A model generated the notes under the pieces. That model ran no database searches. It was not told the origin of the DNA and saw only the letters and a list, made by a program, of their open reading frames with translations. Positions 825-27,515 of a stretch of DNA of 27,759 bases are shown here, piece after piece (within the stretch, counting starts at the first letter, position 1; each line of letters begins with the position of its first letter). Location: positions 1 to 27,759 of the IMG/VR virus record IMGVR_UViG_3300042553_000328. One strand, written 5' to 3'. Source of the DNA: a virus. The position numbers were made by a program, and so were the translations under genes.

Positions 825-2759
825 TTAACGCTTTGATTTAACTACTACTTGACGCCAAATATGTCGGCAAAATGGCACACTTACATCCGTTCCTTTTCTT
901 CTATACCATCCACCTCGTGCCATCCATACATTTGTTATATATGGCAAGAAACTAACTTCCATGTCATTTCTCATGCCTTCTATTTCTTCTTTGGTGTATA
1001 GCTTATTTGATGCAACCAACTCACGGCAGAATTGCCTTGTCTTTTGAATTACCAAAGGTTGACCACTCATGTCATTTCTAATACCGTATTGATATTTAAC
1101 TAATAGTACTTCATCAGGGTTAGGTAGCTTCATGATTAAAGGCAATGCAGACTGTGTGACATTCATATTACCGTTATCTGCCCTAACTATCATCTTCTTA
1201 TTAATCAACGCTTGTACGGCACTTTCTATCGTTGCCACATCGACTTTCATCACCTTTGCTACTTCGGCTATGGTTATGCCTTTGTTAGCACGAACAATCT
1301 TAGCTATCTCCGCTAATTGCTTTTCGGTTGGGTCAGCAAATTCAAAGTCATTTTCATTGATTTCAAACTTCACACTTTCGTTATCTGCATTAACTTGAAA
1401 GTCACCAACTATCTCGTAATCATCTGCCTTGACACCTTTGTTTTTGAAGTAGTTTAAAATGGCATCATCAAATTGCTCTTCAAACTTTATACTTAATTGA
1501 GTTTCTTCGGTTGTGTTTTGCTCATCACTTGGCGAAATTCCATACACTTCTGATACTCTTTCCTTCAATTTCTCACGGTCAAATAGACTTATCATTGTGA
1601 CTGGGTCTATAACTGGCAATTCAGTTGTAATAGGTCTTAATTCTTCAACTGATATTGGTCTGCCTAAACCTTTGTAATCAAACACATCATTGACTACATT
1701 TAATAAGATTCTCTGTCTTCCTTGTATGTAGGTTTCTTTGAATAGTTCGTAAGCATTTAACATCTCTGTTCTGCCACCTAATTGACCTTCTGTTTTTACA
1801 CCGAATAACATTGGTGATGTTACCTTATGACCAATGAAGATTGAATCTGTCACACGCTTTTCAAGTTGTGCAAATCTATCGGGCAAGTCGTTGCCCATTA
1901 AGTTCAATATCTCCGCACCTGATGTATCTTTTGAATCAGCAAAGTTGATTAGGATTCTATTACCATTTGAACTTCCTGCTGCCTTGTCATATATCTGTTG
2001 TTCAATAGCGTTCTTTTGCTCTTCTTCGGGTGGCATTCCGTTGTAAAGATTTATCATCGTACCACCTGCAAAACCGTTTACAATCGTGTTCAAATCAAAA
2101 TTACTTATCTCTATTTGCGTTCTGATTTGTTGTAAAGCACCGATGTAGTCAGGTAATGGATATTCTTTCATGTTTGGTCGGTATTCACGGTGATAAATTA
2201 CCGACCTGCTTTGTGTTTTGTTAGGATTGAATAAAGGAAGTAAAGTTGTTTTGGGTCTGAAATTACGGTTGTAAGTAAAGTCATCCATTCCCCATTGAAG
2301 ATTCAACCACTCATCAGAATACATCACGTTGTTACGGTCATCTATTGGTACTCTCAACCGACCAAAGTCCATGTGATATACTTCGCTTATCTTGCCGTTT
2401 TTATCGTTTAAAACCTCTATTGCAAATCCATTGTAAATCTCATAATCTGCTGCTATCTTTTTAAAGATGTCATTCCATGTTTCGTATGGATTTGGTGAAA
2501 AGACAAATGCTTCAACCATTGCTCTTTTAAGCGTGTTCATGTCGTTTGGTACTGTCAGTCCACGACCAACAATATAGTTTACCTTGCCCGTTACAATAGC
2601 GTTATGAACGCTGCTACCATTAAATAGGTCAACCAAGTAAAATGGGAATGCGTTATCTTCACCATACTCAACATATTTGCCCCTTTTGTTTTCAATGAAG
2701 TTAGGTGCATTGTATGCCGTGAAGTCTAAACTGTATAATCCGTTGCTAATCTGCTTCAT
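825..2759 (-). CDS. Phage portal protein with extra C-terminal domains
   Basis: A 644-residue portal. Residues 1-400 have the portal pattern: an N-terminal strand-rich part with 'YGEDNAFPFYLVDLFNGSS' and 'GKVNYIVGRGL', a wing (100-210), the segment 'NFDLNTIVNGFAGG' and a stem/crown region with 'FIGHKVTSPMLFGV', 'GGRTEMLNAYELF' and 'QRILLNVVNDVF'. The portal forms the dodecameric DNA entry ring at one vertex of the head. Beyond residue 400 come two extra parts: residues about 478-535 look like a winged helix (KIVRANKGITIAEVAKVMKV, then IESAVQALINKKMIVR) and residues about 560-644 carry 'RQFCRELVASNKLYTKEEI' and 'RGGWYRRKGTD' plus 'PFCRHIWRQ'. The gene overlaps the upstream gene by 14 bases and is followed by the connector gene. 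Confidence 0.85.
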   Translation of the reverse strand: MKQISNGLYSLDFTAYNAPNFIENKRGKYVEYGEDNAFPFYLVDLFNGSSVHNAIVTGKVNYIVGRGLTVPNDMNTLKRAMVEAFVFSPNPYETWNDIFKKIAADYEIYNGFAIEVLNDKNGKISEVYHMDFGRLRVPIDDRNNVMYSDEWLNLQWGMDDFTYNRNFRPKTTLLPLFNPNKTQSRSVIYHREYRPNMKEYPLPDYIGALQQIRTQIEISNFDLNTIVNGFAGGTMINLYNGMPPEEEQKNAIEQQIYDKAAGSSNGNRILINFADSKDTSGAEILNLMGNDLPDRFAQLEKRVTDSIFIGHKVTSPMLFGVKTEGQLGGRTEMLNAYELFKETYIQGRQRILLNVVNDVFDYKGLGRPISVEELRPITTELPVIDPVTMISLFDREKLKERVSEVYGISPSDEQNTTEETQLSIKFEEQFDDAILNYFKNKGVKADDYEIVGDFQVNADNESVKFEINENDFEFADPTEKQLAEIAKIVRANKGITIAEVAKVMKVDVATIESAVQALINKKMIVRADNGNMNVTQSALPLIMKLPNPDEVLLVKYQYGIRNDMSGQPLVIQKTRQFCRELVASNKLYTKEEIEGMRNDMEVSFLPYITNVWMARGGWYRRKGTDVSVPFCRHIWRQVVVKSKR

Positions 2760-3120
2760 AAATTACTGTTGTTGTTGTGTTAGAATGCTCTACATACGTT
2801 GCATCATCACCCTCTACACGCATTATTCCTTGCTCTATTAAATCATTAGGGTCTGTTGGAATGATTGTGTTTGCTGCTGCCTTCTGATAAACCTTATATA
2901 TGTAATCACCTTTGAATGGAATAGTAGCAGTCACACCCTCTTCAAATTGAAATTTATTAAATCTTTCAGGGTATGCCGAAATGTCTGTCATCAACCATTT
3001 AACGATAGCTTGACCTGACTTGCCCGTTACTGTCATAAGGTAATACGGTGCAGCTATTGTGACCTTTTCGGTTAATGTCAATGCAAATGTGTTTACTACG
3101 CCCTTTTCTATGACTATCAT
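2746..3120 (-). CDS. Small virion structural protein, beta-rich
   Basis: A 124-residue protein between the tail-tube-like gene and the portal gene, overlapping the portal start by 14 bases. It is strand-rich, with 'FALTLTEKVTIAAPYYLMTVTG', 'ISAYPERFNKFQFEEG', 'ATIPFKGDYIYKVYQ' and a final 'GIMRVEGDD'. The pattern (hydrophobic strand start, 'S.YPERFN.F', then 'GDYIYKVYQ') is one I associate with small structural proteins of Bacteroidota phages, probably a single beta-sandwich. It follows a strong terminator, so it may be expressed less than the capsid and tube genes. The exact role (head decoration, neck or tail) cannot be read from the sequence. Confidence 0.6.
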   Translation of the reverse strand: MIVIEKGVVNTFALTLTEKVTIAAPYYLMTVTGKSGQAIVKWLMTDISAYPERFNKFQFEEGVTATIPFKGDYIYKVYQKAAANTIIPTDPNDLIEQGIMRVEGDDATYVEHSNTTTTVIYEAD

Positions 3121-3158
3121 ATACCTATATATAAACTAACGGTCTTTTGTTTAAAACG

Positions 3159-3186
3159 AAAAAAGCCACCCCTTTCGGAATGGCTT
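3159..3186 (-). terminator. Rho-independent terminator with GAAA tetraloop
   Basis: On the minus strand the bases from 3186 to 3163 form a 10-bp stem (AAGCCATTCC with GGGGTGGCTT, two of the pairs being G-U) closed by a GAAA loop, followed directly by a run of six T counting the two that end the stem. It lies 38 bases downstream of the tail-tube-like gene and before the 124-residue gene. The G-U pairs exist only in the minus-strand RNA, which matches the direction of transcription. It probably trims or attenuates the abundant capsid/tube transcript before portal and connector. Confidence 0.85.
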
Positions 3187-3224
3187 CAATTCAAAAATAA
3201 TTATGACAAATCGAAAAGAAAATG

Positions 3225-3749
3225 CTATAATGTAGTTACGCTAATAAGTGATGAAAAACCTGCATAGTTAACTTCGGGTGCTGCTTCTGGCTCTCCACCT
3301 TCAAAGTTAAGTTCATACCCATTTCTATCTCCATAGTCAGTACCCGAACCTGCTCTACTGTTGGCGAGTGTGATTCCGTTATCTTGACCTAATAGCCAAT
3401 ACTTATCATTTTGGTCTTTGACAATTACTGTCATGTTTGCTTTTGCGAGTAGCATAACCTCGTTACGCTTTGCTTGTTCCATTTTTGACAATGGAATTAA
3501 AGCAGTCTGTGCATAGAATACAGTTCCGTTTTGGTCGTTTACTGTAATGGCTTCATCCCACATACCAGTTTTTTTTCTTGGCACATATTTGAAGAAGGTA
3601 GCACCTGCTGCAATAGCAGTTACCATACCCGAACCATTCTGTGTAACTCCCAATCCCGTTGATGGGATATTGGCGATGTAAAATTCTTTAACACCGCCTG
3701 AATTATCCCTGCATCCTAAACTGACACCCGTTGTTAGTTCACACGCCAT
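3225..3749 (-). CDS. Tail tube-like major structural protein
   Basis: A 174-residue protein two bases downstream of the major capsid gene. It starts MACELTTGVSLGCRDNSGG and contains 'VFYAQTALIPLSKM', 'MTVIVKDQNDKYWLLGQDNG' and 'GYELNFEGGEPEAAPEV'. The scheme of an N-terminal 'AC.L..G..L.C.D..GG', a central strand pair and 'D.NG/K..LLG...G', ending in an 'F.G.E' segment, is what I recognise as a tail tube-type protein of Bacteroidota phages; tube proteins polymerise as hexamer rings around the tape measure. Position right after the capsid gene and before a strong terminator suggests high expression. A head accessory role cannot be excluded. Confidence 0.55.
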   Translation of the reverse strand: MACELTTGVSLGCRDNSGGVKEFYIANIPSTGLGVTQNGSGMVTAIAAGATFFKYVPRKKTGMWDEAITVNDQNGTVFYAQTALIPLSKMEQAKRNEVMLLAKANMTVIVKDQNDKYWLLGQDNGITLANSRAGSGTDYGDRNGYELNFEGGEPEAAPEVNYAGFSSLISVTTL

Positions 3750-4712: not shown

Positions 4713-5831
4713 TTAGAGTTTGATTATTTTATTAGAGTGTAAGATTTGCGCCATTCTAACGGCTCTATCTTTTGCAGTTTCTTTTTCTACTGCTGATTTC
4801 GGTGTGCTTGTTGGTTCTTCTTTTGGTGCAGATTCAAATGCTCTAACCGCTTCCAAAAGTTCTTTGTTGAATGCTTCAAGTTCAATGTTCTTTTCTTTGA
4901 TAGCTTCAAACTCAATTCTTTGCGCTTCAAATTTGGCAGATAGTTCTGCTCTCATCTCATCAAGCAATGTGTTGAGTTTAGTTTCCATTTCTTCGGTTGG
5001 CTCTTCTTCTTCAATTTTAGCTTTGATTTCTGTAATCATTCCTGATACAGTAGTTACCAATGTGCCATCACTTAATTCATGTGTAGCATCGGGTGCAGGT
5101 ACATCGCCATCAGGTGTGATAACCATAACAACCGCACCTTCTTCAAGTGCAGGTTCAACTTTGATTGCAGTACCATCCATTAGAGTAGCATCAATGAAAT
5201 ACTGTTCTTTTTGTTCAGTTTTTTCATCCATGTCTTTGCCAAAATACTTGGCAAATAGTTCATCCATTTTTTCAACTAAGTTCATATTTTCTGTTATTAA
5301 TATTTGCTTGAAATTACCTTCAACACTAAACCCTTTGAATAAACCCGTTTTCACGAAGTCATTCCATACTTGGTCATTGTCAACTTTGAATGCACCAAAC
5401 CAAGTACCATCAGGAAGGTCTTGAAATTGTTCTGGTGGCATAACACCACGCTGCGAATCTTTGATAAAGGTTTCAACCATGTACACATCATCAAATGCTA
5501 TTGATGCTATGTGCTGCGCATTGGTTTCTGCGGTTCTTTTCTCACGCATAAACCTCTCACGAATCTGATAGATGGTGTCCTTTGAGAATACCACGTTAAA
5601 TTCGTAGCCATCTTGATTCCTTCTGTATATCTGTAAGTCAGGTATCATTAACGCACCGAACACAATGCGCTTTTCTTCTGATTCAGTAATGAAATTGAAT
5701 TTGTTATTGTCGGATTCGTTGAATGCAATCCAATCTACTTCAATCGCAGGGTTGTCAACCAATGCAACCGCCTTAACACCTGCTTCTGCTGATTCATCAA
5801 TTACCAATTCAAATAATGGTAGTCCATTCAT
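4713..5831 (-). CDS. Prohead protease (XkdF type) fused to scaffold-like C-terminus
   Basis: A 372-residue protein. Residues 1-180 match the XkdF-like phage serine protease pattern: 'VALVDNPAIEVDWIAF', 'EKRIVFGALMIPDLQIYRR', 'FMREKRTAETNAQHIAS' with a candidate catalytic His107, 'VYMVETFIKDSQRG', 'DGTWFGAFKV' and 'GLFKGFSVEG' with a candidate catalytic Ser169. Residues 215-255 are acidic and strand-like; residues about 260-330 are charged, helical and probably coiled-coil (ELSAKFEAQRIEFEAIKEKN), as expected of an internal scaffold; the C-terminus is basic. The protease would process the prohead after assembly. It lies 19 bases upstream of the capsid gene. Fusion of protease and scaffold is known in other phages. 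Confidence 0.8.
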   Translation of the reverse strand: MNGLPLFELVIDESAEAGVKAVALVDNPAIEVDWIAFNESDNNKFNFITESEEKRIVFGALMIPDLQIYRRNQDGYEFNVVFSKDTIYQIRERFMREKRTAETNAQHIASIAFDDVYMVETFIKDSQRGVMPPEQFQDLPDGTWFGAFKVDNDQVWNDFVKTGLFKGFSVEGNFKQILITENMNLVEKMDELFAKYFGKDMDEKTEQKEQYFIDATLMDGTAIKVEPALEEGAVVMVITPDGDVPAPDATHELSDGTLVTTVSGMITEIKAKIEEEEPTEEMETKLNTLLDEMRAELSAKFEAQRIEFEAIKEKNIELEAFNKELLEAVRAFESAPKEEPTSTPKSAVEKETAKDRAVRMAQILHSNKIIKL

Positions 5832-5871
5832 ATAAGCATATATAATAGACTACGGTAATTGTTTAAATTGA

Positions 5872-7671
5872 TTATTTTACAACTGCCTTAGATTGAATGT
5901 CACTTACTCTACCTGATGCTGCTCTGATGTCTGTTTCGGTGACATACACCTTAACTGGTTCTGCATCTTTTCTGCTTCGCACAGATTGTGGTGTAAGTAC
6001 TGTAAGTCCCGTTGATTGTGATTGTGTTCCGCCACTCAAACCTGATACACCACCACTACTATCCATAGATGATGATGCACTATCATATTTCATTGATTTA
6101 ATTTTAGCAACTCTTGATAAACCACTTACAATCGCTACACCTGCTGCTATTTGCGCACGAACTATTGATGTAGGGTCTAATGGTATAATTTGTGATGCGT
6201 ATGCTTTTTGTGCTGCAAAATATGTTGACACTAACGCTTCCGCAATTTGTATTTTCTTATTATTTTCAAATGCCTTTTTAGCGTTTTCTTCTGATTTATT
6301 AGCAAACACCTCATTCATGCTACTGATTATACCTAATCCTTGCATGGTCAAATCCTCATAAAATTGTAGATTTTCTTGCTTCTTTCGTGCTATCTCTACT
6401 AATTTATCGGCATGGTCTTGTCTAACTTTTAAGTCATAAGCCAATTCATTTTCTCTGCGTTTCTGCGCTTCAAATTCGCCAGTTTCTTCTATCTCTCCTA
6501 ATTCAATAATTATTTCATCTGCTTCTTTTTGTAATTTTAATCTCTGTTCAGTTAATTGTTTTTGTCGTGCAAATATTTCATCCATATGTTTTTCAGACTC
6601 TTCAGCACCTTTTTTAAATTCTTGTTGCAAATCTTCATTTATTTGCTTAATAGTTTCAAACCACTCCTTTTCTTTTTCTTCTTTTTCTTTTGCTGCTGCC
6701 AATAGGTCTGCATTAACTTTGTCACGCTTTGCCTTCTCATCATCAAGTAATTGGTTGCGTTTGATTACGTTCTTTTCAAGATTTGTGGTAGCTTCATCCT
6801 CAAGTTCAATTCCTTTTAATATAGCATTTTTTAGATTTAAATATAACTCATCTTGCGCACCACCTTTTTTTTCGCTATACTGTTGGTATGCAACCCCCAA
6901 TTCTTCAAAATCTTCTAACTCTTTTCCTTTTAATCCTGCCTTTATAATTATGGCTTCTTTAGCTTGTTTTAATTCCTTATCTGCTATTTTCTTTCTTTCA
7001 TTATAATCTAACTCTTCTAAGATTGATGCTTGTCTTAATAGTTCAATTCTTTCTTTTTCACTTTTTGTTCTATCTTTAGCAGCTACATTCAATGAATTGA
7101 TTAAAGCCCTTGATTTTGCGGTTGACACTTCTTGTATTTTCATTTCATTATTTAACTCTTGTTGCGCCTTCTTTAATTCACTTGCTCTTTTAGCTGCTTC
7201 CGACATATCGCCACCTAAACCACGAAACGCTTCCCCAACCGATTTACTGCCAGTTACCATTGCAACAAAAGCATTACGAACAACTCCTATAACTCCACTT
7301 ATTGCAGCAAAACCTTGTTCTATTTTGTCAAGTAATGGCTGAAATGTTTTGAATGCTTGATATACTAACAAACCTGCTGCTGCTATGGCTGCTAATACAA
7401 TACCTAATGGTGTAGATATGAATGAAAATGATGCTTTGGTAGCCATGTTTATTCCACTAATTAACTGACCTAACATTGGATTTGCTCTACCTATTGCATC
7501 GCCTACCATTTTAAAGCCATTTGACATATCGGTTGTAACCTTTTTGGATTGCTTACCAGTCTGCTCGGTTGCTTCTACCGTACCTCTTAACTCTTCATTT
7601 AGGTTCTCTACATTTGCCGTACCCGTTGCCGTATCTACAACGACCTTAAGACTTACTACTTTATCTGCCAT
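5872..7671 (-). CDS. Tape measure protein
   Basis: A 599-residue protein with the classic tape-measure make-up: an N-terminal part (MADKVVSLKVVVDTATG), a hydrophobic segment at residues about 88-106 (TPLGIVLAAIAAAGLLVYQ), a second glycine/alanine-rich stretch, then a long charged helical, coiled-coil region (about 160-450) rich in K and E, and a C-terminal part with 'GLGIISSMNEVFANKS' and a serine/glycine-rich end. Tape measure proteins set tail length and take part in DNA ejection; about 600 residues would suit a fairly short siphovirus-type tail. The gene is three bases downstream of the large tail gene and 40 bases upstream of the protease gene. Confidence 0.8.
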   Translation of the reverse strand: MADKVVSLKVVVDTATGTANVENLNEELRGTVEATEQTGKQSKKVTTDMSNGFKMVGDAIGRANPMLGQLISGINMATKASFSFISTPLGIVLAAIAAAGLLVYQAFKTFQPLLDKIEQGFAAISGVIGVVRNAFVAMVTGSKSVGEAFRGLGGDMSEAAKRASELKKAQQELNNEMKIQEVSTAKSRALINSLNVAAKDRTKSEKERIELLRQASILEELDYNERKKIADKELKQAKEAIIIKAGLKGKELEDFEELGVAYQQYSEKKGGAQDELYLNLKNAILKGIELEDEATTNLEKNVIKRNQLLDDEKAKRDKVNADLLAAAKEKEEKEKEWFETIKQINEDLQQEFKKGAEESEKHMDEIFARQKQLTEQRLKLQKEADEIIIELGEIEETGEFEAQKRRENELAYDLKVRQDHADKLVEIARKKQENLQFYEDLTMQGLGIISSMNEVFANKSEENAKKAFENNKKIQIAEALVSTYFAAQKAYASQIIPLDPTSIVRAQIAAGVAIVSGLSRVAKIKSMKYDSASSSMDSSGGVSGLSGGTQSQSTGLTVLTPQSVRSRKDAEPVKVYVTETDIRAASGRVSDIQSKAVVK

Positions 7672-7674
7672 GAC

Positions 7675-10551
7675 TTATATTCTGTTAATTCTATAATATA
7701 CAACCACTTTAACGGTGTTGGTCGTTCCTGCACCTGCATTAACTGATGTACTCAATTCGATAGCTTCACCCATGTCAAGTACTTCCGTTCCTACCGTACC
7801 CTTTAAATACGCATCTGCAACTTGACTGAATAGATTAGTAATTGCATTCAAACTGTTGTTACTTGTTGCGGTCTGTACGTTTAATGTTACTGATGTTGTA
7901 GTCCACCCCTCGTTATAATCTAATTCATACAATGCCTTGTCAATCTGATAATATTCATTCGATGCACATGGTGGTAGTATCTCTATTGGTGATGTATTCA
8001 ATGATGCTGCTTCTGTGCCAGTCAAAGTCAATTCTAATTTAGTCCACGCAAATATGTCGTTGATGATAGTTGCACCTTCACGATACTCGTAGTAATTTGA
8101 TGAACCAATGAATGTCACTTTGTCAGCACCTGCAATGTTACCGTTGCCCCCAAAATTATTTACATTTGTAAAAACTAAAGCACCTCGAATATTATCACCA
8201 ACACTAACACCGCCACCAGTTGTATTACCGTTTCCAAATGTGCTACCACCATACTTATTGACTTGACTTCCACCACGACCTAATGTATTATCAAATGTCG
8301 GGTATGGGCTATCATCAGGAAATAGTTTCTCGCCACCTCTCCATGTTTGTGGTGTTGGTGCAAATGATGGTGATTCTTGCACTTTTAAAAAGATACACTT
8401 AGCCGTTTCGCTGCCGTTGACATTATAGTCAGACACTTCCAATAAACGATAGTAGGCATCTTTAATGTAATATGACTTGCGAAATGATAGCGTGGTGTAT
8501 ACTGCTTTCAAATCCATGTAACAAGTCACTAACTTACTATTGCGGTCTGTTATCTCTTTTATGTACTTTGACCAATATGCGTTGTAAAGGTTGTTATCTG
8601 TATACGACTGTTCAAATAGTTCACCGAATGATGCCTTATAGTATAACACTTGTGGCACTCCATAGGATAAATCAATAGTAGGTGCGTATGGGTCGTTTAA
8701 GTGACCTGCGTATGGATATTGGGTCTTAGATGTTGTAGTGGGTAGTGTTTGATAAATATACCATGTCTTTGCCGTATTTTTTAACCCACCCCAATATAAG
8801 ATTCTTATGTTTGATTGACCCGTTTTAACCACTCCATTTTGGTCAATAAATGACATATCAGGTATTACTCTATCGTTTCCGCTATTGCCTGATGATGGTG
8901 TTGCGCTGAATATAGGCTGAATAGTGTAAGTATCAATCAAAAAATCATTCAGTATATCAGCGTTCTTCTGTCCGTAAACCTCACCGTATGCTTGTTCATA
9001 ACGTTCATTCAAGTAGTCCTTATCTGACTTATACTTCATCTCATAACGTTTGCCCTTGAGCATTCCCATTGGTGTTATTTCAAATGGCTTTGAAGTATCT
9101 AAATAAGGTGTTAAATCTTCTGAACCCGTGAAGAAGTCTTCATACGGTTCTATGATTAGATTTGTCGGATTGTCAGGGTCAATGTCAATAAACAAATTGA
9201 ACATCTTAAATATGCCCATGATAAAATCACGCTGACTAATGTCAATAGGCAATGATTTATTCATTAGCCATGTGTCACCAATTATTGTATTAGGGTCAAC
9301 ATTGATAGTAAATATAGCACCAACAGAAATGATATAATCAAACCGATTATTTGTATTCCACTTATTCCAAATGTAATAAGTTTCTGCACCCATGACCGCC
9401 AAGAACACCTCATCCGTTGATTTAAGGTAGTGTTCGTTTGTTTCAAATTGAAAGGAATGCGGTGCGCTATTTGTTCCGACTGTAACTACACCAACGGAAT
9501 ACCCATCCCACTCGGTCATAATAGTTTCAAGAACGGTGTATGTGCCATCATACTTAACAACTGCAACCTTAAAGCGTGTATTCGTGTTACTGGGTGTGTC
9601 ATTAATTAAGACTGCTGATACTGTTTTGTCTAACTCAACAGTCATTGAACCTCTAAAAATATACCGCCCTTCATTTGCCACATTCCACACTCCCGTAGTA
9701 GTGTTGTAATCTGTGCCTATTGTGTTGAAGTTATTACCACTACTGTCATCGTTATAAATCAATTTAGGATAGCTACTGACATTGTTTTGATTTGTTGGTA
9801 AACTGCCAGTCATTGTCGTTGTAGCACGTGACAAATAGAATATTCTGTCGGCTATCTCTGATTCGCTTAGTTTAGGTTTAGTTCCCGAAAATGGAATGAT
9901 AAGCCGTTTAAATAAATCAGATGTAAGAAATGATGATGTGTAACTGAAACCCGATGCGTTAAATATCTTATCCCAATATTCTTTAGCGAAAATGGCAGGG
10001 TAGAATTGTGATGCATTCCATAGGTCGTATGTCGGTGATTCGCCATAATCAATCATTGGGTATACATAGCCACTTCCTAAAGTAGGTGTCCATGAATTGA
10101 CTATATTGGTCTGATTCCAAGTGTGGTTGTATTCGCTGAAATCTAATTCAGCTAACTTTTTATTTGCAACTACATTAAACAGATTTAATACACTTCCGTA
10201 AATTGTAAGTGTGTAACTGATTTGATTGAAGTCATCTATCTTGATTCCAGTCAATTGCGCATAGCCATCTATCAGCGTTCTGCTATAATAATCAATCCTT
10301 GCTGATGCTTTTAAGTTTGGATTAAAGTCAGGGTTGAAGTTAGTTTGTGATGTGTTCTGAATGTCGATGTTGACATTGAACAAATACCCAAATAAAATAT
10401 TGACCTCTGATGTTCCTGCTACTTCAATAGTTTTTGAATAGTCAGACCAAAGTTGGGATGGATTGTCAATGTCGTAACTCTTTTTGGTTAGCTTGGGTGC
10501 GACATCTTCTGAAAATTGAATGAGTTGATTGTTGATGTATAAACCTACCAT
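7675..10551 (-). CDS. Large tail protein, probably tail tip/baseplate
   Basis: A 958-residue protein starting MVGLYINNQLIQFSEDVAP. The N-terminal 'INNQ.I.FSEDVAPKLTKKSYDIDNP' with 'SDYSKTIEVAGT' is a strand-rich opening that I associate with large tail-tip proteins of Bacteroidota phages. The body is rich in aromatic residues, N, T and S, with few charged helices, as in beta-rich fibre or tip proteins. Around residues 780-810 there is a glycine/asparagine/serine-rich flexible linker (GGSTFGNGNTTGGGVSVGDN), followed by a distinct C-terminal domain of about 145 residues. It overlaps the upstream tail gene by 7 bases and precedes the tape measure gene. No enzymatic motif is seen; host recognition is possible but not shown. 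Confidence 0.6.
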   Translation of the reverse strand: MVGLYINNQLIQFSEDVAPKLTKKSYDIDNPSQLWSDYSKTIEVAGTSEVNILFGYLFNVNIDIQNTSQTNFNPDFNPNLKASARIDYYSRTLIDGYAQLTGIKIDDFNQISYTLTIYGSVLNLFNVVANKKLAELDFSEYNHTWNQTNIVNSWTPTLGSGYVYPMIDYGESPTYDLWNASQFYPAIFAKEYWDKIFNASGFSYTSSFLTSDLFKRLIIPFSGTKPKLSESEIADRIFYLSRATTTMTGSLPTNQNNVSSYPKLIYNDDSSGNNFNTIGTDYNTTTGVWNVANEGRYIFRGSMTVELDKTVSAVLINDTPSNTNTRFKVAVVKYDGTYTVLETIMTEWDGYSVGVVTVGTNSAPHSFQFETNEHYLKSTDEVFLAVMGAETYYIWNKWNTNNRFDYIISVGAIFTINVDPNTIIGDTWLMNKSLPIDISQRDFIMGIFKMFNLFIDIDPDNPTNLIIEPYEDFFTGSEDLTPYLDTSKPFEITPMGMLKGKRYEMKYKSDKDYLNERYEQAYGEVYGQKNADILNDFLIDTYTIQPIFSATPSSGNSGNDRVIPDMSFIDQNGVVKTGQSNIRILYWGGLKNTAKTWYIYQTLPTTTSKTQYPYAGHLNDPYAPTIDLSYGVPQVLYYKASFGELFEQSYTDNNLYNAYWSKYIKEITDRNSKLVTCYMDLKAVYTTLSFRKSYYIKDAYYRLLEVSDYNVNGSETAKCIFLKVQESPSFAPTPQTWRGGEKLFPDDSPYPTFDNTLGRGGSQVNKYGGSTFGNGNTTGGGVSVGDNIRGALVFTNVNNFGGNGNIAGADKVTFIGSSNYYEYREGATIINDIFAWTKLELTLTGTEAASLNTSPIEILPPCASNEYYQIDKALYELDYNEGWTTTSVTLNVQTATSNNSLNAITNLFSQVADAYLKGTVGTEVLDMGEAIELSTSVNAGAGTTNTVKVVVYYRINRI

Positions 10552-19562: not shown

Positions 19563-19577
19563 TTAGAATGATTCTAA
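19563..19577. promoter_or_regulatory. Palindromic site TTAGA-N5-TCTAA (copy C)
   Basis: TTAGAATGATTCTAA, an inverted repeat with 7-bp arms around one base. It lies in the 54-base gap between the helicase stop and the AP2-like gene. Its centre is 33 bases from the T of the TAAATTTG element. The same motif occurs at 24714, 26173 and 27501. Confidence 0.55.
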
Positions 19578-21405: not shown

Positions 21406-21439
21406 CAAATATAGTGATTAGGTTAACTCGGATGCCAAA
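21406..21439 (-). promoter_or_regulatory. Bacteroidota-type promoter for the DUF6291-helicase transcript
   Basis: TTTG at 21439-21436 and TATATTTG at 21413-21406 on the minus strand, 22 bases apart, fit the TTTG / TAnnTTTG promoter of Bacteroidota. It overlaps the last codons of the DnaA-like gene. Transcription would begin close to base 21400, just before the structured leader. Confidence 0.6.
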
Positions 21440-21909
21440 TGGTTTGATATTGTTGATAGATTGTCAAACTCCATTACTTCCAACCTATTCAATTCCGCTT
21501 GTAAATGCTGCATCGTTGTTTTAAGATACTGAACCGATTTAACCCTACTAACTCCTTCCGTAAAAATACAGTTTGAAATGATGTGGTTAAATATGTTCAT
21601 TTGTTCTGGGTAGTGCTTAGACATTTCAATCCAATTATCTACCGACCTCACCGCATGAATTACCGTTGAATGGTCACGACCTAACTGCCTTCCAATACTT
21701 GATTGGGTCATCTTCAATTTACGTCTGCAAATCCACATTATACTATGTCTGATTGCCACGATTTCAATTAGTCTTAATTGACTGTAAATTGTCTGTGGTG
21801 TGATAGTGAATAATTCAGCGCAATGTGGTATTAACTGGGCTGCATCGGTTATAATTTTCGGCACTACCTCGTGATTAACTTTGTGCGTTCTGATTCTTTG
21901 TACTTTCAT
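21418..21909 (-). CDS. Standalone DnaA domain IV-like DNA-binding protein
   Basis: A 163-residue protein. Residues about 45-95 match the DNA-binding domain IV of DnaA: 'IEIVAIRHSIMWICRRKLKM', 'TQSSIGRQLGRDHSTVIHAV', containing the signature GRDHSTVIHA (residues 77-86). There is no AAA+ ATPase domain, so it could bind DnaA-box-like DNA without ATP-driven melting. It might recruit or block host DnaA, or act as a regulator of the phage origin. The C-terminal 60 residues are helical (VQYLKTTMQHLQAELNRLEV), maybe for dimerisation. It follows the winged-helix gene after 6 bases and precedes the replication genes; a one-mismatch DnaA box (ATATTCACA, 21377-21369 on the minus strand) lies downstream. 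Confidence 0.78.
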   Translation of the reverse strand: MKVQRIRTHKVNHEVVPKIITDAAQLIPHCAELFTITPQTIYSQLRLIEIVAIRHSIMWICRRKLKMTQSSIGRQLGRDHSTVIHAVRSVDNWIEMSKHYPEQMNIFNHIISNCIFTEGVSRVKSVQYLKTTMQHLQAELNRLEVMEFDNLSTISNHLASELT

Positions 21910-22277: not shown

Positions 22278-23054
22278 TTAGTATCTTAAATTTACCTTAT
22301 CTCTCCTTCTAAAATTGTATATTTCTTCAATAATGAGTTTGTATTGAGTTACATTTGTGCAATGTGTAAGTGATGTTGGCTGATTTGCTAATTTACTTAT
22401 CATTTCTGCATGGCTATAATTTTCGTTCTGGAATATACCAATCAATGCAGCAACAAATACAGACCTATTAAAACCATCATAGTACGGTTTAAACATTAAC
22501 ACCTTTTCTGCATTGTCGTATGATTGTACTAAATTTGGTATAATAAGCCTACCTTCTTCAAAATTCTTCAATCGACCTCTACCTTTGTCAACATGACCTG
22601 TATTATTTGAACCACCTACCCTATTTGTAAGTAACTGTTCAGAAACGGCAATGCCAAAATCAGGGTAATCATTCATAAATTGTTTCATTTGTAAATAACT
22701 GGAAATGCCTAAATCGCAATAAGCCTTTAAATAGTCCTCTTTCTTCCAATTAGCCGAATTAGTATTCAATATTTGAACTTCATTAAGACCATACCCATCT
22801 ACTACAATGTAGTTAATGGGAAGACCTAACTCTTTTGCAGCTAAATACCTGTGCTGCCCGTCTATTATTTGCCACTTCTCATTAACCAATATTGGGCTAA
22901 ATAAATAACGTTTTTCAAATGAATTAGTAAGCCTTTTAACGTGCAATTCGTTTGGTTTTCTGTTTCCTACAAGCGTTCTAAATCTTGTGTAATCTGATGT
23001 ACTGTGAACTTGGTTACTGTGCTTCACCATTGGTTCTAATTTTGATTGATTCAT
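22278..23054 (-). CDS. ParB-like nuclease-domain protein
   Basis: A 258-residue protein with a ParB/Srx-like domain: 'NELHVKRLTNSFEKRYLFSP', 'ILVNEKWQIIDGQHRYLAAK' with the GxxR-type box (DGQHR), then 'ELGLPINYIVVDGYGLNEVQ' and 'LNTNSANWKKEDYLKAYCDL'. The C-terminal half is helical with no clear motif. Phage ParB-like proteins often act as DNA-binding or nuclease proteins rather than in partition; no ParA is present. ATG at 23054 follows an A-rich stretch and leaves a 10-base gap after the previous gene, so I prefer it over ATG at 23087, which would overlap it. Confidence 0.75.
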   Translation of the reverse strand: MNQSKLEPMVKHSNQVHSTSDYTRFRTLVGNRKPNELHVKRLTNSFEKRYLFSPILVNEKWQIIDGQHRYLAAKELGLPINYIVVDGYGLNEVQILNTNSANWKKEDYLKAYCDLGISSYLQMKQFMNDYPDFGIAVSEQLLTNRVGGSNNTGHVDKGRGRLKNFEEGRLIIPNLVQSYDNAEKVLMFKPYYDGFNRSVFVAALIGIFQNENYSHAEMISKLANQPTSLTHCTNVTQYKLIIEEIYNFRRRDKVNLRY

Positions 23055-23064
23055 TTTTTTTTGT

Positions 23065-23226
23065 TTAAAGTTGTGGTAAATTTTCATAAAGACTGATAAT
23101 GTTCAATTTAGCCCGATTTTCAGGCATTGTAACACGACATGACATTGGTTCTGATACATCCTGCCCTATTGGTTCAATAGTGCCGTACAAGATGCGTAAT
23201 AATGCGGTTTTAAGTTTGTTTTTCAT
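23065..23226 (-). CDS. Small protein of unknown function
   Basis: A 53-residue frame (MKNKLKTALLRILYGTIEPI...) that starts with an ATGA overlap on the stop of the exonuclease gene and ends ten bases before the ParB-like gene. The tight fit and the lack of any other gene in this 168-base gap support it. The N-terminus is basic and amphipathic; nothing else is recognisable. Confidence 0.6.
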   Translation of the reverse strand: MKNKLKTALLRILYGTIEPIGQDVSEPMSCRVTMPENRAKLNIISLYENLPQL

Positions 23227-24713: not shown

Positions 24714-24730
24714 TTTAGACAGATTCTAAA
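24714..24730. promoter_or_regulatory. Palindromic site TTAGA-N5-TCTAA (copy D)
   Basis: TTTAGACAGATTCTAAA, arms TTTAGA/TCTAAA around five bases. It overlaps the stop codon of the NinG-like gene and lies 65 bases (centre) upstream of the T of the -7 element at 24657. Confidence 0.5.
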
Positions 24731-26172: not shown

Positions 26173-26187
26173 TTAGAATGAATCTAA
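26173..26187. promoter_or_regulatory. Palindromic site TTAGA-N5-TCTAA (copy B)
   Basis: TTAGAATGAATCTAA in the 125-base gap between two small genes. The surrounding 20 bases (26170-26189) are identical to those at 27498-27517. Confidence 0.6.
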
Positions 26188-26248: not shown

Positions 26249-26554
26249 TTAGCACCCATTTACTTGCTTGTCCACGCAATAAATCTTATGTGCAATTTCT
26301 AATATCTTTTCGTGCTGTAATGGATGTACTCCGCTAAAATCAAGTTCTGTCCTTACAGGCACTTTTACTTTTCCAACCCATAGTTCGTTTATAAATGTGA
26401 CTTTCGGTTCTAAATCGCAAGTAAACGAAGTGCTAACATCGGATATATTCAATTCATTAACCTTGTATTGTGCGTACTCGATTAATATTTGCTCTACATC
26501 GGACTTGTGTCGTGAACACCATATCCTGTCTACATAACTTTTGATATTTTCCAT
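26249..26554 (-). CDS. Protein of unknown function
   Basis: A 101-residue protein (MENIKSYVDRIWCSRHKSDV...) with a helical start, a middle strand region 'STSFTCDLEPKVTFINELWV' and 'VPVRTELDFSGVHPLQHEK', ending in a helix. It begins 12 bases after the methyltransferase stop, within a copy of the 19-base repeat. Not recognised. Confidence 0.6.
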   Translation of the reverse strand: MENIKSYVDRIWCSRHKSDVEQILIEYAQYKVNELNISDVSTSFTCDLEPKVTFINELWVGKVKVPVRTELDFSGVHPLQHEKILEIAHKIYCVDKQVNGC

Positions 26555-26556
26555 TT

Positions 26557-26575
26557 GTGCTTCGATTTAACATTT
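26557..26575. repeat. 19-bp direct repeat, copy 1 (downstream of methyltransferase)
   Basis: GTGCTTCGATTTAACATTT on the plus strand, overlapping the methyltransferase stop codon. It matches 27394-27412 in 18 of 19 positions, so the two copies bracket the gene. Confidence 0.7.
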
Positions 26576-27367
26576 CGGTTCAAAAGAATTTAAAAAAAGC
26601 CCACCGCACTCTGAAATACGATTTAAAGCAATTTCATAATACTCCTTTGATAATTCGCTTCCAATATAGTTTCTGTTATTTAGAATACTCATTTTGGCAG
26701 TTGTTCCGCTTCCTAAAAAGCAGTCATAAACCAAATCTCCTGCATTACTCCAACTCATTATTTGGTCGGCTGCTAATTGTTCAGGAAACATTGCAGGGTG
26801 TTTTATCTTACCTGTCTGTGTGCTTCCTACCAAATATTCAAATATCTTGCCTTTTATCTTTTCGTCATTAATAACAGTCTGTTTTACTTTTGTAAGTTCT
26901 CCGTTATTAGTTTTATACATATTTGGTTGTCCCCAAGTATTTTGCCCAGCATATTTACAAGGCACTTTTATTGGGTTAAATGCTTTCGGCTTTCCTTTGC
27001 TAAAACAAAACATATATTCCCATTCTTGCTCGTATCTGTTATGAGTAAGCGGTGTGTAGTTTTGTTTCCTGTAAATCATTGTGTCGTGTAAATTAAGCCC
27101 AAGTTCTTTAAAATAAAGTGCCTGTTTAAAACTTGTTCCGCTTTCACTTCCATCTTTTGTTTGGTCGCCAACTACCCAAATAATCACACCGCCTTGTTTG
27201 GTTATTCTCCATAGTTCTTTTGCCACATTTTCAAAATCAAAACTATATCCTTTGTATGTTCTCAAATTGTCATAAGGCGGTGAAGTAACCGTTAAGTCAA
27301 TGAAATTATCAGGCATTTTAGCCATTGTTTCAAGGCAATCTTCGTTGTATATTTTATTTATTTCCAT
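26567..27367 (-). CDS. DNA N4/N6 methyltransferase (PF01555-like)
   Basis: A 266-residue SAM-dependent DNA methyltransferase. The catalytic motif TSPPY is at residues 28-32, near the N-terminus, and the SAM-binding motif 'YDCFLGSGTTAKM' at about 214-226 follows it, so the motif order is IV then I (beta-type). 'FDFENVAKELWRITKQGGVI' and 'HDTMIYRKQNYTPLTHNRYE' are typical of this family. SPPY is most often seen in N4-cytosine enzymes but also in some N6-adenine ones. No restriction enzyme is adjacent, so protection against host restriction or regulation are likely roles. The 90-base leader contains a run of A/G just before the ATG. The gene is bracketed by 19-bp repeats and could be a moron. 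Confidence 0.88.
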   Translation of the reverse strand: MEINKIYNEDCLETMAKMPDNFIDLTVTSPPYDNLRTYKGYSFDFENVAKELWRITKQGGVIIWVVGDQTKDGSESGTSFKQALYFKELGLNLHDTMIYRKQNYTPLTHNRYEQEWEYMFCFSKGKPKAFNPIKVPCKYAGQNTWGQPNMYKTNNGELTKVKQTVINDEKIKGKIFEYLVGSTQTGKIKHPAMFPEQLAADQIMSWSNAGDLVYDCFLGSGTTAKMSILNNRNYIGSELSKEYYEIALNRISECGGLFLNSFEPKC

Positions 27368-27393
27368 CCCTCTTTTTTTCTTTTTTTTCTTTA

Positions 27394-27412
27394 GTGCTTC
27401 GATTAAACATTT
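27394..27412. repeat. 19-bp direct repeat, copy 2 (upstream of methyltransferase)
   Basis: GTGCTTCGATTAAACATTT on the plus strand, 27 bases before the methyltransferase start; one mismatch to 26557-26575. Confidence 0.7.
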
Positions 27413-27456
27413 GTGCTATAAATCCCCTACTGCTACAAGCCCCATACGTTATGCTG

Positions 27457-27464
27457 CAAAATTA
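27457..27464 (-). promoter_or_regulatory. Possible -7 element (TAATTTTG) of the methyltransferase gene
   Basis: TAATTTTG on the minus strand, 89 bases before the methyltransferase ATG. A second TAATTTTG is at 27480-27487. Neither has a clear TTG box at 17-23 bases; a palindrome (27501-27515) is centred 44 bases from the first T of this element. Confidence 0.4.
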
Positions 27465-27500: not shown

Positions 27501-27515
27501 TTAGAATGAATCTAA
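27501..27515. promoter_or_regulatory. Palindromic site TTAGA-N5-TCTAA (copy A)
   Basis: TTAGAATGAATCTAA in the 217-base gap before the methyltransferase gene. The 20 bases AATTTAGAATGAATCTAATT (27498-27517) recur exactly at 26170-26189. Confidence 0.6.

Follow-up and report, generated by a model that had tools for sequence, protein, structure and literature searches.

A phage DNA methyltransferase gene flanked by a putative cassette border motif and its probable integron-type origin

In a stretch of viral DNA of 27,759 nucleotides (IMG/VR record IMGVR_UViG_3300042553_000328, analysed whole and called the window here), a DNA methyltransferase gene is enclosed almost exactly by a 19-bp direct repeat. 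What is this repeat, and did it bring the gene into the phage? A first-pass annotation had proposed that the gene is a moron gained or lost by recombination between the two copies, or that a translation start region had been duplicated.

The repeat and the gene between its copies

The two copies, GTGCTTCGATTTAACATTT at 26557-26575 and GTGCTTCGATTAAACATTT at 27394-27412, are identical at 18 of 19 positions and start 837 bp apart, as the first-pass annotation had reported. They were the only matches of the repeat in the window at up to three mismatches. Shuffles of the window contained a mean of 0.06 matches, and none of 100 reached two copies. Both copies stand just ahead of a gene start, which had also been noticed before: the leader copy precedes the methyltransferase ATG by 26 nt, and the tail copy includes the stop codon of the methyltransferase, its end lying 2 nt ahead of the ATG of a 101-aa ORF (Table 1). 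The 18-codon frame that had been pointed out from 27410 is present, but relatives of the L002 type do not have its ATG in their leaders, so the frame is not a general feature and was rejected as a leader peptide.

Table 1. Features of the methyltransferase locus in the window
Feature	Position	Strand	Basis or remark
Segment absent from L087	26188..27496	.	Promoter region, leader, methyltransferase and 101-aa ORF; blastn
Palindromic operator-like repeat TTAGATTCATTCTAA, upstream copy	27501..27515	-	Sequence
Palindromic operator-like repeat TTAGATTCATTCTAA, downstream copy	26173..26187	-	Together with the upstream copy, flanks the segment missing in L087
Possible Bacteroidota-type -7 element, TAATTTTG	27457..27464	-	Between palindrome and leader
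Possible collapsed attC remnant, GCATAACG-TATGGGGC-TTGTAGC	27432..27454	-	R'' and R'-like box, no stem; placed by position only
Cassette leader, TTGTAGCAGTAGGGGATTTATAGCACAAATGTTTAATCGAAGCACTAAAG...GAGGG	27368..27438	-	Common to L099; less exactly to other DNA-modification cassettes
19-bp border motif, leader copy	27394..27412	-	Coding strand AAATGTTTAATCGAAGCAC; ends 26 nt before methyltransferase ATG
N4/N6 amino-methyltransferase gene, 266 aa	26567..27367	-	PF01555 N6_N4_Mtase, E=1e-38
19-bp border motif, tail copy	26557..26575	-	Coding strand AAATGTTAAATCGAAGCAC
101-aa ORF	26249..26554	-	Absent from L087

The methyltransferase scored 133.9 bits against PF01555 (gathering score 26.7), which places it in the N4/N6 family; all NCBIfam profile matches were below cut-off. 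Judged from its gene family, the enzyme likely modifies the phage DNA against host restriction enzymes. No restriction gene was recognised by Pfam among the neighbours scanned, and GmrSD_N at 22278-23087 matched below cut-off only. The 101-aa ORF had no Pfam match and no relative in the viral contigs or in the loci examined, and it was rejected as a recognisable cassette gene. A DNA search of the phages collection returned matches of 66-74% identity covering at most 13% of the query, and the protein search returned 654 records, the best placed of them about 49-57% identical. In the replication block, the window encodes a protein with a DnaA C-terminal helix-turn-helix domain at 21418-21909 (PF08299, 5.5e-16).

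The attC sites of integrons carry core boxes R'' and R' (RYYYAAC and GTTRRRY) around an imperfect hairpin. No attC-like site was found on the coding strand of the window; one weak match lay far away on the other strand. The order expected of an integron cassette, a single gene followed by attC, was not found here, there being no attC-like site near the gene. The 5' end of the unit resembles an R' boundary, and the 3' boundary is lost. With no intact attC, the cassette looks degraded. A possible collapsed attC remnant lies directly upstream of the leader and is present in the related contig L099 too. It is a guess from position, because its R'' box GCATAACG is no rarer than chance; GNNTAACG alone was found 8 times against 8.33 expected, and the region does not fold into a hairpin. 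The reading of TAATTTTG as a -7 element follows TAnnTTTG, which we take to be the Bacteroidota-type consensus.

Three states of one phage locus

Sequence comparison revealed a single locus in three states within one phage lineage, with an N4/N6 gene in the window, a C5 gene in L099, and neither in L087, the last two being single contigs each. L087 shares about 92% nucleotide identity with the window and lacks the whole segment given in Table 1. By blastn, positions 2-263 of the window's reverse complement matched L087 3920-4181, and positions 1573-3162 matched L087 4163-5748. At the L087 junction the palindrome TTAGATTCATTCTAAATT stands once; in the window it stands twice, and these two copies, at a distance of 1,328 bp, enclose the methyltransferase and the 101-aa ORF. 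L087 contained no PF01555 gene at the corresponding place and no match of the 19-bp motif at up to four mismatches, and the 19-bp repeat was rejected as the boundary of this indel.

These comparisons bear on gain and loss of the methyltransferase as an 837-bp cassette by crossover between the 19-bp copies. Two near-identical copies do enclose the gene, and repeats of such length can support deletion, but no product of this kind was found: the sole gene-less relative lacks both copies and is joined at the palindrome, and relatives with a single copy and no gene, which the first-pass annotation had proposed to look for, were absent among the loci fetched from viral contigs. Since the motif also stands at the borders of many other genes, we consider such a crossover improbable. 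The moron idea survives in so far as the methyltransferase is a moron-like cassette that one relative, L087, lacks; the single junction observed between presence and absence does not lie at the 19-bp repeat.

The position of the junction in L087, exactly at a palindrome that recurs in the window, would fit another account, in which homologous recombination between duplicated operator palindromes exchanges the whole unit of operator, promoter, methyltransferase and ORF, after the manner of lambdoid mosaicism, and any integron history is irrelevant. It leaves unexplained the swap behind an identical leader in L099 and the cassette-like boundaries in unrelated contigs, and as a full account we regard it as unlikely. 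Exchange of this type is compatible with the cassette explanation given below, as its last step.

The leader of L099 is identical to that of the window and is followed by a C5 methyltransferase gene (PF00145). From the palindrome to ATGGAAA, the two differ by one mismatch, at reverse-complement position 264, and by none over 265-399. The L099 contig stops within the C5 gene and does not reach the 3' junction. A search for further relatives with the locus-specific remnant returned L099 only. A terminase search yielded L117, which matches the window at 100% identity over 17,042 bases; the methyltransferase locus had no match in its 24,477-base record or in the records of L118-L120.

The palindrome TTAGAWTCATTCTAA occurs between gene blocks of the window at 27501-27515, 26173-26187 and 19563-19577 and in a more diverged form at about 24715-24729, with TAATTTTG downstream in part of the copies; it looks like an operator common to early operons. 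Elsewhere in the same gene block, L087 carries a helicase-like gene and a methyltransferase-like gene of 338 aa, judged by eye, at 7851-10236. Two further indels against L087, at 3162-3376 and 4715-5477 of the window's reverse complement, show 20-35 bp of overlapping similarity at gene starts, and gene-start recombination may be common in this phage.

Cassette boundaries, attC-like sites and the common leader

A methyltransferase homology scan of viral contigs gave 67 loci. In the closest of them, blastn homology started near the window's leader repeat and stopped at its tail repeat. DNA homology among the loci runs from the boundary between G and TTATAAGCTGG to GCTTATAAC, with unrelated flanks; the 5' boundary pattern was present in 11 of 12 loci and the 3' pattern in 11 of 12 (the comparison comprises eleven loci, L003 being a duplicate of L002). 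Among 43 distinct relatives (48 of the 67 loci, with identical genes dropped), 10 had the motif at both leader and tail and 33 at neither; the tail motifs of the ten are weak one by one, with 5-7 mismatches in 19, and were judged by position. The tail copy of the window occupies the place at which relatives carry a tail motif before attC, which argues against a duplicated translation start region.

The core-box boundaries (R' ... R'') are sharp in the relatives, and many of these loci are surrounded by attC-like sites. An attC-like site directly follows the methyltransferase gene in L010 and L011, and in L035 an R'' start follows it. The sister phages L002 and L004 are 98-99.8% identical to the left of their cassettes. 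Beside the methyltransferase their cassettes differ, and immediately behind TAAC the two sequences become alike again. At 5842-6569, L002 has cassettes of 72 aa and 108 aa; the same place in L004 (5842-7600) holds an ORF of 63 aa, a second methyltransferase-like gene of 230 aa and an exonuclease-like gene of 187 aa. The L004 contig also encodes a terminase and a helicase-primase.

Over all loci used, 49 distinct attC-like sites, AACG/GTTA with a palindromic stem, were called by our own script rather than by IntegronFinder or HattCI, and several of them depart from the full 7-nt core-box consensus. On folding, their bottom strands gave hairpins in which single bases stay unpaired; a further hairpin, at L072:6822-6900, is no attC-like site and was left out of the count. 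The 169,658-base contig behind L011 and L047 (G003) has 22 such sites on one strand, from 81 to 115 kb, against none on its other strand and none in each of three mononucleotide shuffles. Methyltransferase genes stand in a row there with attC-like palindromes between them, and 10 large ORFs scanned included phage-type genes (HNH, RtcB and tail-fibre PHROGs), four having no match. At the downstream end of the array, at about 115.7-116.6 kb (L069:1183-2079; L072), lies a tyrosine recombinase gene, whose product scored 154.8 bits against TIGR02249 (cut-off 265) and 206 against the XerA-type NF040815 (cut-off 220). A complete integron would carry an integrase gene; the G003 recombinase is XerA/Xer-like and falls below the integron-integrase cut-offs. 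PF00589 had no match in the other 11 records searched.

The motif was located, at up to 5 mismatches in 19, around 59 distinct attC-like sites. It occurred in the tail at 5 sites, in the loop at 14 and in the leader at 11, against shuffle means of 0.08, 0.26 and 0.32, respectively; the leader count is inflated because some leader sites were found through the motif, which bears less on the counts for loop and tail, L111 excepted. Sampling leaned towards finding the motif, with L002-L068 obtained by methyltransferase homology and L093-L111 and L113-L115 through the motif or leader. Control stretches 300-360 nt upstream of attC-like sites contained it in 0 of 57 cases. Tail motifs lie 14-18 nt before R'' and leader motifs about 20 nt after R', and the two copies in the window fit the leader and tail places.

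The 19-bp repeat appears to be a border motif of an integron-type cassette family found in Bacteroidetes MAGs and in IMG/VR contigs classed as viral. The two copies in the window are best explained as the leader and tail border motifs of the cassette, rather than as a duplicated target site or as the ends of the indel observed. Repeats around unrelated genes had been named in the first-pass annotation as evidence against its proposal, and this was partly what we saw: the motif borders many unrelated genes, as the border motif of a cassette would. An element for regulation or translation, copied ahead of genes and with mobility irrelevant, would account for copies just ahead of start codons and for a leader that is nearly constant before unrelated genes, but not for motifs in attC-like loops or in tails before attC, with no gene start directly after them. 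We consider this very unlikely.

The exact leader pattern was present in 16 viral stretches and three genome contigs, namely two Bacteroidetes MAGs and one Flavobacteriaceae MAG, in which it lies in an attC loop. Pattern matching gave 22 leader cases, from which L111 (motif in an attC loop), L011 and the window had been left out, and in 19 of them the gene that follows matched a Pfam DNA-modification family; the exceptions were L096 (partial, no match), L098 (broken frame) and L115 (unknown protein). The families were N4/N6, MT-A70 (L094), C5 (L099) and Mom (L106, L113). In the leaderless control, 5 of 48 sites gave no ORF of 50 aa, and DNA-modification genes made up 21 of 43 ORFs (17 PF01555, 3 Dam and 1 MT-A70; family counts summed). 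The difference gave p=0.003 by Fisher's test, a value that is too small, since many of the genes are mutually homologous and it overstates their independence.

Proposed history and relation to known systems

Taken together, the methyltransferase probably entered the phage lineage as an integron-type cassette whose attC sites decayed, the gene or the whole unit having since been exchanged through the leader and the palindromes. On entry, the leader, a DNA-modification gene, the tail and an attC would have formed one gene cassette, and we infer a past role of an integrase at this step. The neighbouring attC sites would then have decayed in the window lineage, with nothing left of the 3' one and at most a stem-less remnant of the 5' one, so excision of the gene by an integrase has probably ceased. 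The gene behind the common leader would have been swapped, N4/N6 in the window and C5 in L099, the simplest route being recombination within the leader, either homologous or illegitimate. Finally, the whole transcription unit is present between two operator-like palindromes in the window and absent from L087, through either loss in the L087 line or gain in that of the window.

We also put forward, tentatively and with considerable doubt, a plug-in DNA-modification system of phages. A constant leader and the border motif would mark cassettes with unrelated modification genes (N4/N6, C5, MT-A70 and Mom); large phages would hold arrays, perhaps mobilised by an array-linked Xer-like recombinase, and smaller phages would swap genes behind the leader to follow host restriction. 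If the cassette reading is right, Bacteroidota phages draw on a common pool of DNA-modification cassettes whose border mark can be recognised, and modification genes can therefore be swapped like integron cassettes. The mark would also provide a sequence handle for phage anti-restriction genes of unknown family. How fast phage modification changes in response to hosts would become testable, and here one locus offers empty, N4/N6 and C5 states among close relatives.

Other phage genes resemble the one studied here. In lambdoid phages, morons and boundary sequences set a foreign gene apart as one unit with a short repeat on either side; the window gene, which lies close to a NinG gene, is enclosed likewise, but its border motif is common to attC-flanked cassettes in other phages and Bacteroidetes MAGs. 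Orphan phage DNA methyltransferases are single methyltransferase genes in a phage, and here too a single gene has no restriction gene recognised among its Pfam-scanned neighbours; unlike them, the window gene comes with the leader and tail of a cassette.

Phage-borne methyltransferase cassettes have already been published, in phage-borne CALINs such as that of Polaribacter phage P12002L (Qi et al., 2023; PMC9892861), and one of the two P12002L sites tested there with IntI1 recombined. The common leader, the allele swap and the empty site of the window lineage are not described in the accessible part of that paper. No literature on the border motif, the common leader or a swap of modification genes behind it was found in a search that lay mostly outside subscription journals. 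As in P12002L, methyltransferase genes occur in the phages studied here, no integrase occurs among the window genes scanned, and the window's relatives have attC-like sites of similar shape. In contrast, P12002L lacks the 19-bp motif at up to four mismatches, and the window, unlike phage CALINs, has no intact attC. Sites of similar look occur in P12002L between its methyltransferase and Mom genes. Its segment at 37305-38816 (L116), which the accessible part of PMC9892861 does not describe as a cassette, comprises a Mom-like gene, an attC-like site and a methyltransferase gene.
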